IMG/VR virus record: IMGVR_UViG_3300027969_004530
Coordinates: 1 to 39,519 of that record
Reading direction: 5' to 3' (one strand)
Origin: a virus
Length of the DNA: 39,519 nt
Each line of letters begins with the position of its first letter. Position 1 is the stretch's first letter. Positions 3,314 through 14,560 of the stretch are shown here, one piece after another. Made by a program: the position numbers and the translations under genes. The notes beneath the pieces were generated by a model that did no database searches, was not told the DNA's origin, and was given only the letters and a program-made list of their open reading frames with translations.

Positions 3314-4816
3314 TCATTCTTCATCGTCAAATGATTCTGATTTTTTCTTTTTACCACCAGCTTTAAACTGATCGAAATTTAAATCTTCTGTTTTCTGAGA
3401 ATTCGAAGTGCTAAATAATTCTTTATATTTTTCATTTGTTATTTCATACAAATCTAATGTACCCATAGATAAATCAAATCCTATTTTAAAATTGAACCTT
3501 GATTGTCCATTTCTGTGTTTTATAACAAATACCCTTCCTATCTCAGCATCCTTCTCGGAACTTTTTTGATTAATAGACCAAAAAGCATCAAGTGGCTTAT
3601 ATTGATCAAACGATGTTCCTATGTTTGATTCGTCAATATATTCGTTTAATTCTAACTTCGCTGCTGATTGATTTGGTTGCAAACATGTAAATGTACAATG
3701 ATTTTGTTCGACCCCGAAACCTCTTAAATCTCTTAATATTCTATAAGCAGACTCGTACTTCTTAACAGTCGGGTCATCTTTCATTTCTCCGACATAATCG
3801 ACAATAACTAAATCTGGCTTCCAACCTCTAAGAAGCAATTGAGCGTGATAAGCTCTAATACCATTGACATCGATCATGCCACCGGGAAATTGCTTTACAA
3901 TTAAAAGATTAGAATTTTCTTTGTCCTTTTTAAATTCTTCAATCGTACTCTTGACTTGATCTTTATTCTCTTTTAATAAATTTATATCAATCTTTGTAAA
4001 TTGTGATGTAAATCTTGTTGCTATTCCTATCTCGTCCATTTCCATGGTTAAATATAAAACTTTATGGCCTAAAAGAACATTAGCAACAGCAGCCTTCGAA
4101 AGAGCCAAAGACTTGCCAGTACCGGGCAATCCTATCCATGAAGCTATTTGTCCATGAAATAAGCCACCTCCAGTCAAATTGTTATCTATAGAAGGAAATC
4201 CAGATGTGAATCTATCCTTACCAGCGAACTGATCTTCCATGCGATCAAACATCAAATCTATATTTAAAAAATATTCAAGTCCCGGTTCATATGATCGCTC
4301 GATTAACATAGACTGACGCATTTGCTCGTAGACATACGCCCAAGTCTTTTCTTCCTCTGGTGCCTTTTTCATTTTTTCGAGACAATTATGAAATGCTACT
4401 TTTACCGCTTGTACTTTAGCAAAGTAGAACACTTTATCGATAAGGTATTCTCTCGTATCAAGTCCGGGAACATAATAGCTATATAAACTTCCTAATTCAG
4501 CACAATGATACAACTGAATAGTTTTATCTTTGTCTTTTATCTTTGAGGTGAGTTCCGTGTTCATTATAAAATGATCAGGAATAGAATTCTTTTCTTTGAA
4601 GTAATCAAATAAAATCTTCGATATCAGAACATGTATTTCATTTGAAAAATATTCTGGTTTTAATTTATCGATACTTTGAATCAACATGTATTTATCAGTA
4701 AGCAACATGCCGAGCAGTTTCTTCTGGAACATATCGTCCCATGAAAACTTCGTCTGTTGCGTTTCTGGATTAGTTAACGACTCGATTATTGCTTGTTCTT
4801 CTGGTGTCAAACTCAT
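3314..4816 (-). CDS. replicative DNA helicase, DnaB/gp41-like
   Basis: Hexameric 5'-3' helicase expected to unwind the replication fork. The 500-residue protein has an N-terminal helical domain (about 1-180) and a RecA-type motor domain. Walker A GLPGTGKS is at residues 229-236, followed by the DnaB-type YLTMEM segment. Walker B LVIVDY ends at D340, and a conserved Q (CLQPNQ) follows. The C-terminal tail is lysine-rich then acidic (KKKKSESFDDEE), a likely protein-interaction tail. The start has a strong GGAGAAAG binding site. It lies downstream of the polymerase gene on the same strand. No primase gene is visible in the window. Confidence 0.92.
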   Translation of the reverse strand: MSLTPEEQAIIESLTNPETQQTKFSWDDMFQKKLLGMLLTDKYMLIQSIDKLKPEYFSNEIHVLISKILFDYFKEKNSIPDHFIMNTELTSKIKDKDKTIQLYHCAELGSLYSYYVPGLDTREYLIDKVFYFAKVQAVKVAFHNCLEKMKKAPEEEKTWAYVYEQMRQSMLIERSYEPGLEYFLNIDLMFDRMEDQFAGKDRFTSGFPSIDNNLTGGGLFHGQIASWIGLPGTGKSLALSKAAVANVLLGHKVLYLTMEMDEIGIATRFTSQFTKIDINLLKENKDQVKSTIEEFKKDKENSNLLIVKQFPGGMIDVNGIRAYHAQLLLRGWKPDLVIVDYVGEMKDDPTVKKYESAYRILRDLRGFGVEQNHCTFTCLQPNQSAAKLELNEYIDESNIGTSFDQYKPLDAFWSINQKSSEKDAEIGRVFVIKHRNGQSRFNFKIGFDLSMGTLDLYEITNEKYKELFSTSNSQKTEDLNFDQFKAGGKKKKSESFDDEE

Positions 4817-4873: not shown

Positions 4874-5437
4874 TTACAAATTCGTACCAAGATAATCGTA
4901 TTCGGATAAACTAACTAAACCTGATCGAATAGCTTTTTCTCTAGTGATTTTCTTACCCATGCTCTTCTGACCATTCCAAACAATCGCTTTACAATAAGTC
5001 GAAAACTTTGTGTCGATTTTTAACGATTCGGTTTTACTTGGTCTGATGTCTTTGGGAACATATTTTTTAATCAATTCGTCTAATAACTTTTCTTGAATGG
5101 GTCCAAATTTTTGTCTATTCGCACCGTGACGAGTTCTGTTGTTCCACAAATTTTGTAAAGTTAAAACTAACTTTTTATTTTTTACGGTCTTCTTGATGTG
5201 TTCCTTGGCCAACACAAGTGAACTTTCAATATAAATCTGTCTCTTGTAATAAGATCCTGCACGAATAATAGAAAGTTGAAGCTCTTGGTTTATATCATCT
5301 ATGTCTTCGACACAGTTGTTTTTTGAATTTTTCTTTTTTAATTGATGTGCTGCGTAATAACAAAGTTTGCCAAATTTTTTATCTAATTCAAAATATTCTT
5401 CTGATGTGATTGGAAAATTATTGCATATCTCTTTCAT
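4874..5437 (-). CDS. conserved-looking phage protein, possibly sigma region 2-like
   Basis: 187 residues. The N-terminal half has an acidic DDINQEL segment followed by LSIIRAGSYYKRQIYIE. The C-terminal half has FSTYCKAIVWN followed by basic residues. These resemble the D-x-x-Q-E and F-x-x-Y patterns of sigma-70 region 2, but the match is loose and no promoter-binding helix can be assigned. It starts 4 nt after the polymerase stop and precedes the DnaB-like helicase gene, so a replication role is equally possible. I would annotate it as unknown, with the sigma-like pattern as a hypothesis. Confidence 0.65.
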   Translation of the reverse strand: MKEICNNFPITSEEYFELDKKFGKLCYYAAHQLKKKNSKNNCVEDIDDINQELQLSIIRAGSYYKRQIYIESSLVLAKEHIKKTVKNKKLVLTLQNLWNNRTRHGANRQKFGPIQEKLLDELIKKYVPKDIRPSKTESLKIDTKFSTYCKAIVWNGQKSMGKKITREKAIRSGLVSLSEYDYLGTNL

Positions 5438-6746: not shown

Positions 6747-6867
6747 AGATTTTCCCTAAATATATTTGTTAAATCAAATCTAACAAACACTTACATAAAA
6801 AACAATAGACAGTTACTTTTAGTTAAATAGTATTATTTTTACGTACCGAGGTCCCGACTTAAGGGTA

Positions 6868-6918
6868 AATGGATTTTTAATTAAGGTAATTAGTAATACC
6901 TTAATTGTTACTTCCATT
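6868..6918. repeat. two-stem inverted repeat in the non-coding region
   Basis: Outer arms AATGGA (6868-6873) and TCCATT (6913-6918) and inner arms AATTAAGGTA (6879-6888) and TACCTTAATT (6897-6906) are all perfect. They are separated by a small internal loop and capped by an 8-nt loop. A coaxial 6 + 10 bp arrangement is unlikely by chance and suggests an RNA helix. Confidence 0.8.
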
Positions 6919-6926
6919 AGCATTAT

Positions 6927-6995
6927 GTTACTTAAGTTAAGAGTTAATATTTGAAACAATAGTTTCACTTAAAAACTTTAGTAACTTAAGTTAAC
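6927..6995. repeat. long-range stem with nested hairpins
   Basis: Arms 6930-6939 (ACTTAAGTTA) and 6982-6991 (TAACTTAAGT) are perfectly complementary. They extend by GTT (6927-6929) with AAC (6993-6995) across one bulged T. Inside lie AGTT/AACT (6942-6945, 6974-6977) and a 6-bp hairpin TGAAAC/GTTTCA (6952-6957, 6962-6967) with an AATA loop. The nesting gives a coherent multi-helix fold. Confidence 0.7.
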
Positions 6996-7138
6996 AACCG
7001 AAAGTTACGCTAACATTATGGTGCGTTTGTTATGGTCGCCTAATCTAAGATAGCTCTAGAAAAACATAAGGTTAATTAAGTTTAACTAAAGATTCGGGTG
7101 GTTTTTCCTATCCTAGACTACCTTGACCATTGGAGAAG

Positions 7139-7158
7139 AATACTGCTCGTACAGTATT
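7139..7158. repeat. 7-bp hairpin in the non-coding region
   Basis: AATACTG (7139-7145) and CAGTATT (7152-7158) pair around the loop CTCGTA. It is enclosed by TGGAG (7131-7135) and CTCCA (7193-7197). A second CAGTATT near 7271 could compete for the same left arm. Confidence 0.7.
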
Positions 7159-7373
7159 GTGTTTAACAACTAAGACTTCATCTGGGTAAGACGCTCCAAG
7201 GTTTTTTCATTAAATTACTCAAGGGAACGCAGCCAATCATAAAATAATGGAAGGATTAGAGCCTTCATCTCAGTATTCAAAGTTTTCAAAGTATTAATTT
7301 ACATTGTTACTTTAATTAAAATTATTGCAACCCTAATGTAATAAATTTGAATGATTTTTATTTTAAAATATGA

Positions 7374-7922
7374 TTACTTATTGAACCCAAGAGAAAAAGG
7401 TCTCTTATCGTGAATAACAGTAATTATAAAAGAGTTTTCTTTTTCTGAAGGTTCAGATTGAACTAATATTCTTCCTATTCTAACTGGATTCCTTGTTTCT
7501 CTTGAAGTTTTAGTATGTTTGCCGTCGCTACTAAATTTTAAATCAGATTCCCTATCGATTAGTTCTTTTATAACCCATTTTTTGACTTCTTCTTTTGCTT
7601 TTATTTCAGTGTGGTTATTTGATGTATACTTCCAAATCCAGCCTTCTGTGTTTTTATCAGGTTTCCAATTGCTATTATCGCCTATTTTAGAATAATCAAT
7701 TCTAGTCATCGAATAACTATTTTTATCTCCCAAATTTAAACTTTTAGGTTCAGGTTTAATTTTTTTACCTCCAAACCCAAGATCTGTTAATTTTTTCAAA
7801 CCAATACCACCAAGAGTACTGCCAATTCCAACAACGGCTGCGCTTTTAAGGAAATCCCTACGATTCATTTCATCGTAAAGTTCTGGATCTCGTTGTTCTA
7901 AAAATTGTGTAAATGATGTCAT
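7374..7922 (-). CDS. hypothetical protein with head-targeting-like N-terminus and Tat-type motif
   Basis: 182 residues of unknown function. The N-terminus MTSFTQFLE resembles the T4 capsid targeting sequence. Residues 19-27 (MNRRDFLKS) followed by a small, hydrophobic stretch (AAVVGIGSTLGGIGL) form a textbook twin-arginine signal. An ATG at 7868 would make that signal N-terminal, but neither ATG has a clear ribosome binding site. The start at 7922 sits directly behind TATAAATT. The rest is polar with a probable beta-rich C-terminal domain (RIGRILVQS, NSFIITVIHD). It is transcribed divergently from 7977. It could be a packaged virion protein or an exported protein. Confidence 0.7.
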   Translation of the reverse strand: MTSFTQFLEQRDPELYDEMNRRDFLKSAAVVGIGSTLGGIGLKKLTDLGFGGKKIKPEPKSLNLGDKNSYSMTRIDYSKIGDNSNWKPDKNTEGWIWKYTSNNHTEIKAKEEVKKWVIKELIDRESDLKFSSDGKHTKTSRETRNPVRIGRILVQSEPSEKENSFIITVIHDKRPFSLGFNK

Positions 7923-13966: not shown

Positions 13967-14560
13967 ATGAAATATGCATCTATAGATATCGAAACAAGCG
14001 GGTTAGATCCTAAGAATCATGATATTTTAGAATTCGCAGCGGTTCTTGATGATTTGAAGAATCCTTTGCCGATAAAAGATTTACCAGTTTTTCATTATCA
14101 TTTAAATAAAAAAGAACCTTACTGTGTCGACCCCAAAGCTATCAAGATACATAGTAGAAATATATTATTAGATATTTCGAACAAAGTCGAAAACAATTCA
14201 CCTTACATTTGCTATCCAGAAGAATTGTTCACAAGGTTAAGTAATTTTCTTTTTATAAATGGTTACAACGATGATAATGAAAAAATATATTTAAATGTTG
14301 CTGGTAAAAATTTTGCAACATTTGATTTAATGTTTTTACAAGAAAAAATACAAAAAAACGATTGGTCTAACATTTCGTTTCGATCTAGGGTAATAGATCC
14401 TGCTATACTATATTTTGATCACTTTAAAGACGATCATTTGCCTAATATGGAAACGTGTTTAGATAGAGCTTCTATAAAGGAAAAGGTAACTCATAACGCT
14501 GTAGATGATGCTATACAAGTAATAAAGCTAATTAGGCGTAAATACAAAATACATTTTTAA
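13967..14560 (+). CDS. DnaQ-like 3'-5' exonuclease (DEDDh)
   Basis: 197 residues of the RNase H-like exonuclease fold. Exo I is SIDIETSG with D7 and E9, Exo II lies in FATFDLMFL, and Exo III is HNAVDDAIQ with H176 and D181, which makes it the DEDDh type. No polymerase or helicase domain is attached. Since the family A polymerase in this window lacks an exonuclease domain, this enzyme is a candidate for its proofreading partner, by inference. An AAGGAAG binding site precedes the ATG. It is followed after 17 nt by the UvsW-like helicase gene. Confidence 0.9.
   Translation: MKYASIDIETSGLDPKNHDILEFAAVLDDLKNPLPIKDLPVFHYHLNKKEPYCVDPKAIKIHSRNILLDISNKVENNSPYICYPEELFTRLSNFLFINGYNDDNEKIYLNVAGKNFATFDLMFLQEKIQKNDWSNISFRSRVIDPAILYFDHFKDDHLPNMETCLDRASIKEKVTHNAVDDAIQVIKLIRRKYKIHF

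Follow-up and report, generated by a model that had tools for sequence, protein, structure and literature searches.

The minus strand from position 7275 to 6842 of the window, by which we mean the whole 39.5-kb virus record analysed here, is predicted by comparison of homologous loci to be the gene of a large structured RNA whose fold, as compensating base-pair changes show, is maintained. As no described RNA family matches it, this RNA, placed before a DNA polymerase gene, looks like a new large phage RNA family. Dozens of related phages, very large ones among them, carry a member of this family immediately 5' of their family A polymerase gene. The family is tied to a defined place, at the front of a replication operon, and the phages concerned have almost no described relatives.

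The RNA lies within 6747-7373, which at 627 nt is the longest stretch of the window without an ORF of at least 70 aa, the runners-up measuring 239 and 228 nt. The original prediction had rightly called it the only long gap in the window and had noted a raised G+C content, which is indeed 0.40 at 7081-7200 compared with 0.31 for the whole window (0.33 for 6841-7290). It had also described perfect nested inverted repeats, which is accurate for 7139-7158, where the arms are exact (AATACTG/CAGTATT), but not for 6868-6918 and 6927-6995, which are nested but imperfect, with arm complementarity of 75% and 88%, respectively. Folding compared with shuffled sequence gave z-scores of -5.7 (minus strand) and -3.8 (plus strand) for 6841-7290, and of -4.5 (minus) and -2.3 (plus) for 6760-7375. 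The RNA strand, which the prediction had left unnamed, is the minus strand, as for the polymerase gene. The 5' end is placed at about 7275, or as much as some 40 nt upstream of it, and the 3' end near 6842, leaving 95 nt to the polymerase gene (Table 1).

Table 1. Features of the predicted RNA and of the adjoining replication genes (window positions)
Feature	Position	Strand	Evidence or remark
Family A DNA polymerase gene, 434 aa	5442..6746	-	PF00476, E 3.5e-24; directly 3' of the RNA
187-aa gene, no known family, search anchor	4874..5437	-	Conserved; adjoins the polymerase gene
DnaB-like replicative helicase, same operon	3314..4816	-	phrog_19, E 5.5e-52
Spacer from RNA to polymerase start	6747..6841	-	No terminator found; one weak promoter-like site at 6786-6759
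Predicted conserved large structured RNA, ~430 bases	6842..7275	-	Nearest relative differs at 4 of 434 nt; homologues in distant loci
Core: predicted four-helix junction, conserved AAACCTTGG..GAAGTCTTAGTTG	7131..7204	-	Covariation at 16 of 19 pairs; found (E about 4e-9) by a model from which the window was excluded
Core hairpin AATACTG-TACGAG-CAGTATT, conserved loop ACGAG/ACGGG	7139..7158	-	Alignment A9, helix 4
Core hairpin beside the closing helix, GCGTCTTACCCAGATG	7179..7194	-	Alignment A9, helix 2
5' hairpin GAAGG-CTCTAAT-CCTTC	7250..7266	-	Aligned with L022
P2, 5' strand, UGCGUU	7226..7231	-	Putative covarying long-range helix, read by eye
P2, 3' strand, AACGCA	7022..7027	-	Putative covarying long-range helix, read by eye
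Px (putative pseudoknot), 5' strand, ACCCGAAUC	7091..7099	-	Covaries with AAGUCGGGA in 18 members, read by eye
Px (putative pseudoknot), 3' strand, AAGUCGGGA	6852..6860	-	Partner of ACCCGAAUC
Conserved 5' motif ACTGAG	7269..7274	-	Possible pairing with CTCGGT at 6845-6850, without covariation support
Conserved 3' motif CCTCGGTACG	6842..6851	-	Compared across loci
Two long A+T-rich hairpins, variable 3' half of the RNA	6868..6995	-	Not alignable between groups

Some of the surrounding genes deserve a short description. The 187-aa protein, which has neither a Pfam nor a PHROG family, keeps 56-74% identity across distant phages, has at least 180 relatives in IMG/VR, carries the conserved motifs NRTRHGANRQKFG and TYCKAI.WN.QKSMG and resembles a sigma factor, as judged by eye only. 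A separate DnaQ-like exonuclease, also recognised by eye, is encoded at 13967-14560 on the plus strand and would suit the short 434-aa polymerase. A gene for a small protein with a twin-arginine signal is inserted upstream of the RNA (7374-7922, minus strand) and evolves fast, with 24 nonsynonymous and 9 synonymous changes between the window and its nearest relative.

In this nearest contig, the polymerase of which is 99% identical to that of the window, the RNA (6842-7275) shows 4 changes in 434 nt compared with 64 in 576 fourfold sites of seven neighbouring genes (Fisher p 3e-12; p 0.02 against the polymerase gene alone). There are 6 changes in the 98 positions just upstream of the RNA (7276-7373) and none in the 95 of the spacer between RNA and polymerase. 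On these counts, the RNA segment is more conserved than coding DNA.

Using the 187-aa neighbour as anchor, we collected 17 and then 80 viral loci, together with one Neisseriaceae MAG contig, most of which share the gene order; after dropping near-duplicates and the loci that carry one of two protein genes (AEP-TOTE-like or 387-aa) in the slot before the polymerase, 38 distinct polymerase loci were left. Most of these carry an RNA of 340-550 nt in the slot, the first homologue having been seen in L022, a 381-kb contig; 26 of the loci fall into four or more groups built on one plan. The very divergent rest (e.g. L027-L029, L043, L050, L075, L092, L094, L099 and L101) was not matched by our models and may possibly belong to the family; in several of these loci, and in group D, the motif TGCGC precedes the polymerase by 70-165 nt. 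The constant location of the RNA is partly a product of construction, most loci having been fetched through the neighbour gene. When only the RNA sequence was used for scanning, 20 true matches were obtained, all in contigs with the polymerase locus, and one of them, the previously unseen L131, was found in this way only and also has the RNA adjoining the polymerase.

A scan with a 17-base pattern recovered two true relatives, its other matches having no further similarity to the region, and three matches to RNA patterns (L115, L120 and L125) were set aside as chance, none having a model match and two (L115 and L125) lying inside a Dam-like methylase gene. An unrelated phage contig of 100 kb has, within a tRNA array, a non-coding segment (L031:2685-2735, minus strand) that shares GGCTGnnnTCCCTT..ACTTTGGAG with the RNA; this is probably chance, a model match being absent across the whole record. 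Whole-record searches gave no significant second copy of the RNA. When phage records were searched directly at the DNA level, the window gave just short A+T-rich matches and two other members gave none. The contig binned to the Neisseriaceae MAG (AWTP1-37) holds both RNA and polymerase locus (L102:4920-4997), possibly a faint hint at the host.

The fold was derived from a core alignment of 17 members, one of them the window's near-identical relative; an early six-locus MAFFT alignment was too loose to use. The 17 sequences give a four-helix junction in which 96.6% of cells are paired and 16 of 19 pairs are altered on both sides, with a covariation score of 0.581 compared with 0.183 for shuffled and at most 0.103 for slid alignments. 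In this core, a closing helix is joined by as many as three hairpins, the loops of which are conserved. The model built from the 17 sequences (R1) also finds L022, L046 and L077, and a second model (R2), from which the window and its near-identical relative were excluded, matches the window once only, with 44.3 bits and an E of about 4e-9 (E-values are rough), the minus-strand match spanning 7131-7204. Outside the core, the 5' hairpin at 7250-7266 reads GGATG-CTCACT-CATCC in L022, where the stem differs and the CTC start of the loop is kept. Two further helices, P2 and Px, were picked by eye, which biases toward pairing, and tested by re-dealing their 3' strands: P2 has 131 of 138 pairs and Px 138 of 162, values matched by none of 5000 re-dealings in either case. 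P2 and the pseudoknot Px are predicted to tie the middle of the RNA to its 5' part and to its 3' end. A closing helix P1 (ACUGAG/CUCGGU), of which the apparent pairing had no covariation support, was dropped. The proposal that the region could be a large folded phage RNA is strongly supported: on two of the points by which it could have failed, covariation is present and the sequence is not variable in relatives.

Some relatives have protein genes in the slot of the RNA. Among 50,697 phage records, the 187-aa gene occurs in one only, the uncultivated 595-kb LR756511.1, which is the nearest relative in that set (31% polymerase identity) and in which a 387-aa gene occupies the space from the polymerase to the divergent gene, so that an RNA would have no room; neither this record nor a 340-kb record with the same gene gave a significant RNA copy. 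The 387-aa protein (L014:5204-6367, minus strand; also L023 and L025) has palm-like motifs by eye (NIDIINSQ, IHDSI) and no match in Pfam or PHROG, and in LR756511.1 its gene is translationally coupled to that of the polymerase. In another branch, the slot is held by a gene of 421-427 aa for an AEP-TOTE-like primase (L020:4362-5645, plus strand; also L017, L019, L021, L026 and L091), with a PF22548 score below the curated cut-off. The presence of such genes could mean that the region is what is left of a lost protein gene, or a spacer under no constraint. This reading is contradicted by covariation, constraint and model detection, in no frame does the region resemble the 387-aa gene, and the covariation already refutes it unless the alignment is wrong, so that we give it practically no credence.

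How the RNA is made and acts can be considered from its surroundings. Of 26 members, 10 have promoter-like sites a short way upstream of the RNA, whereas those between RNA and polymerase are significant in 2 of 25 only, and a promoter of the polymerase's own at that place was rejected; no terminator was found between the two in 25 members. Because promoter-like sites precede the RNA, few follow it and no terminator intervenes, the RNA is probably made together with the operon, and it would be transcribed from a sigma-70-type promoter just upstream. We favour, with about an even chance of being right, a free-standing RNA of the replication module over a leader or an origin or primer transcript, because the spacer to the polymerase varies (60-220 nt) without a shared switch or expression platform and because the fold is large and pseudoknotted. 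Such an RNA would fold alone or with a phage protein and would act as an RNA-protein or RNA-only structure, not as a switch in the polymerase mRNA. The same operon surrounds it in every member, including those found by RNA pattern alone, and the AEP-primase-like or 387-aa gene that takes its place in relatives without it also points to the replication module. However, the whole gene order is conserved, so that location alone says little on function, and the window's own upstream promoter is weak.

The lack of a terminator and the few promoter signs before the polymerase would also be explained by a very large cis-acting 5' leader, which would form the untranslated start of the polymerase operon mRNA and control its expression, for instance through the binding of the polymerase or some other replication protein. 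In all members the RNA is directly upstream of the polymerase gene and on its strand, and the extra gene of the window does not separate the RNA from the polymerase but lies upstream of the RNA. The promoter-like sites before the RNA fit a leader as well as a free-standing RNA. A precedent for an RNA element that immediately precedes the DNA polymerase gene of a phage is the translational operator of T4 gp43, although that is a much smaller hairpin, located at the ribosome binding site of a family B polymerase gene; the present RNA is large, ends 60-220 nt before its gene and accompanies a family A polymerase. Given the variable spacer and a fold far larger than that of usual leaders, we regard the leader as a possible but clearly less probable explanation than the free-standing RNA. 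It seems unlikely that the RNA is an origin-linked transcript, marking or priming a phage origin much as ColE1 RNA II does. The likeness to ColE1 RNA II, a structured transcript some 500 nt long that works together with a family A polymerase (DNA polymerase I), is a functional analogy only, the present RNA having no sequence or structural match to it. The RNA does lie in the divergent promoter region of the replication module, next to a family A polymerase, and in the 381-kb relative the cumulative GC skew is flat to about 72 kb and then rises, with the RNA at 70.2 kb. This turn, suggestive of an origin near the locus in that one record, is confounded by gene direction, which switches there too, and a second record (225 kb) gave no clear picture; no iterons were noticed apart from the hairpins. 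Records that carry the RNA and records that lack it both show DnaG-like signals, which weakens the idea of the RNA as substitute for an only primase and also speaks against an origin transcript and against the replication-module reading.

Returning to the free-standing RNA, the fixed gene partner and the protein genes swapped into the same slot make its role directly testable. More tentatively, and with less confidence than we grant the leader, we suggest that it may represent a new functional RNA class in the DNA replication of huge phages, possibly a catalyst or an essential RNA-protein component, exchangeable with a primase-like or polymerase-like gene at the locus.

Its size and complexity and its location in phages could also indicate a divergent member of a known family such as ROOL, GOLLD, group I introns, RNase P RNA or tmRNA. 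This is very unlikely: Rfam at gathering level gave no match in the window and 16 relatives, and nothing convincing at relaxed level in the RNA region and four relatives. RNase P RNA and tmRNA were not matched by Rfam or ARAGORN models, nor group I introns by an Rfam model, and unlike a group I intron the RNA sits between two complete genes and interrupts none. No tRNAs were found in the window, a tRNA-like score at 7242-7308 being far below its cut-off. The literature found on large RNAs of phages and huge phages, mostly without subscription papers and preprints, does not contain this RNA, and an earlier description is possible.

Large RNAs of elaborate, conserved fold are rare; OLE, ROOL and GOLLD are known ones, and their functions are still poorly understood (PMC12286853). 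OLE, of about 600 nt, occurs in extremophilic or anaerobic Bacillota and has protein partners (PMC12286853, PMC12054373); the present RNA resembles it in being large and conserved and differs in having no Rfam match. The size class of ROOL or GOLLD, in which the prediction had placed the RNA, is roughly right, but at 340-550 nt the RNA is smaller and Rfam matches neither family. GOLLD, many members of which exceed 800 nt and lie near tRNA islands, is likewise a large ornate RNA of phages and prophages and is known from lake metagenomes among others (PMC12286853); the window, in contrast, has no tRNAs, and the GOLLD model in Rfam is unmatched. ROOL, with an example of 659 nt, is similarly a large, pseudoknotted, phage-encoded RNA of unknown function, is often found near tRNA islands and forms an RNA cage (PMC12286853), whereas the present RNA stands beside a polymerase gene.
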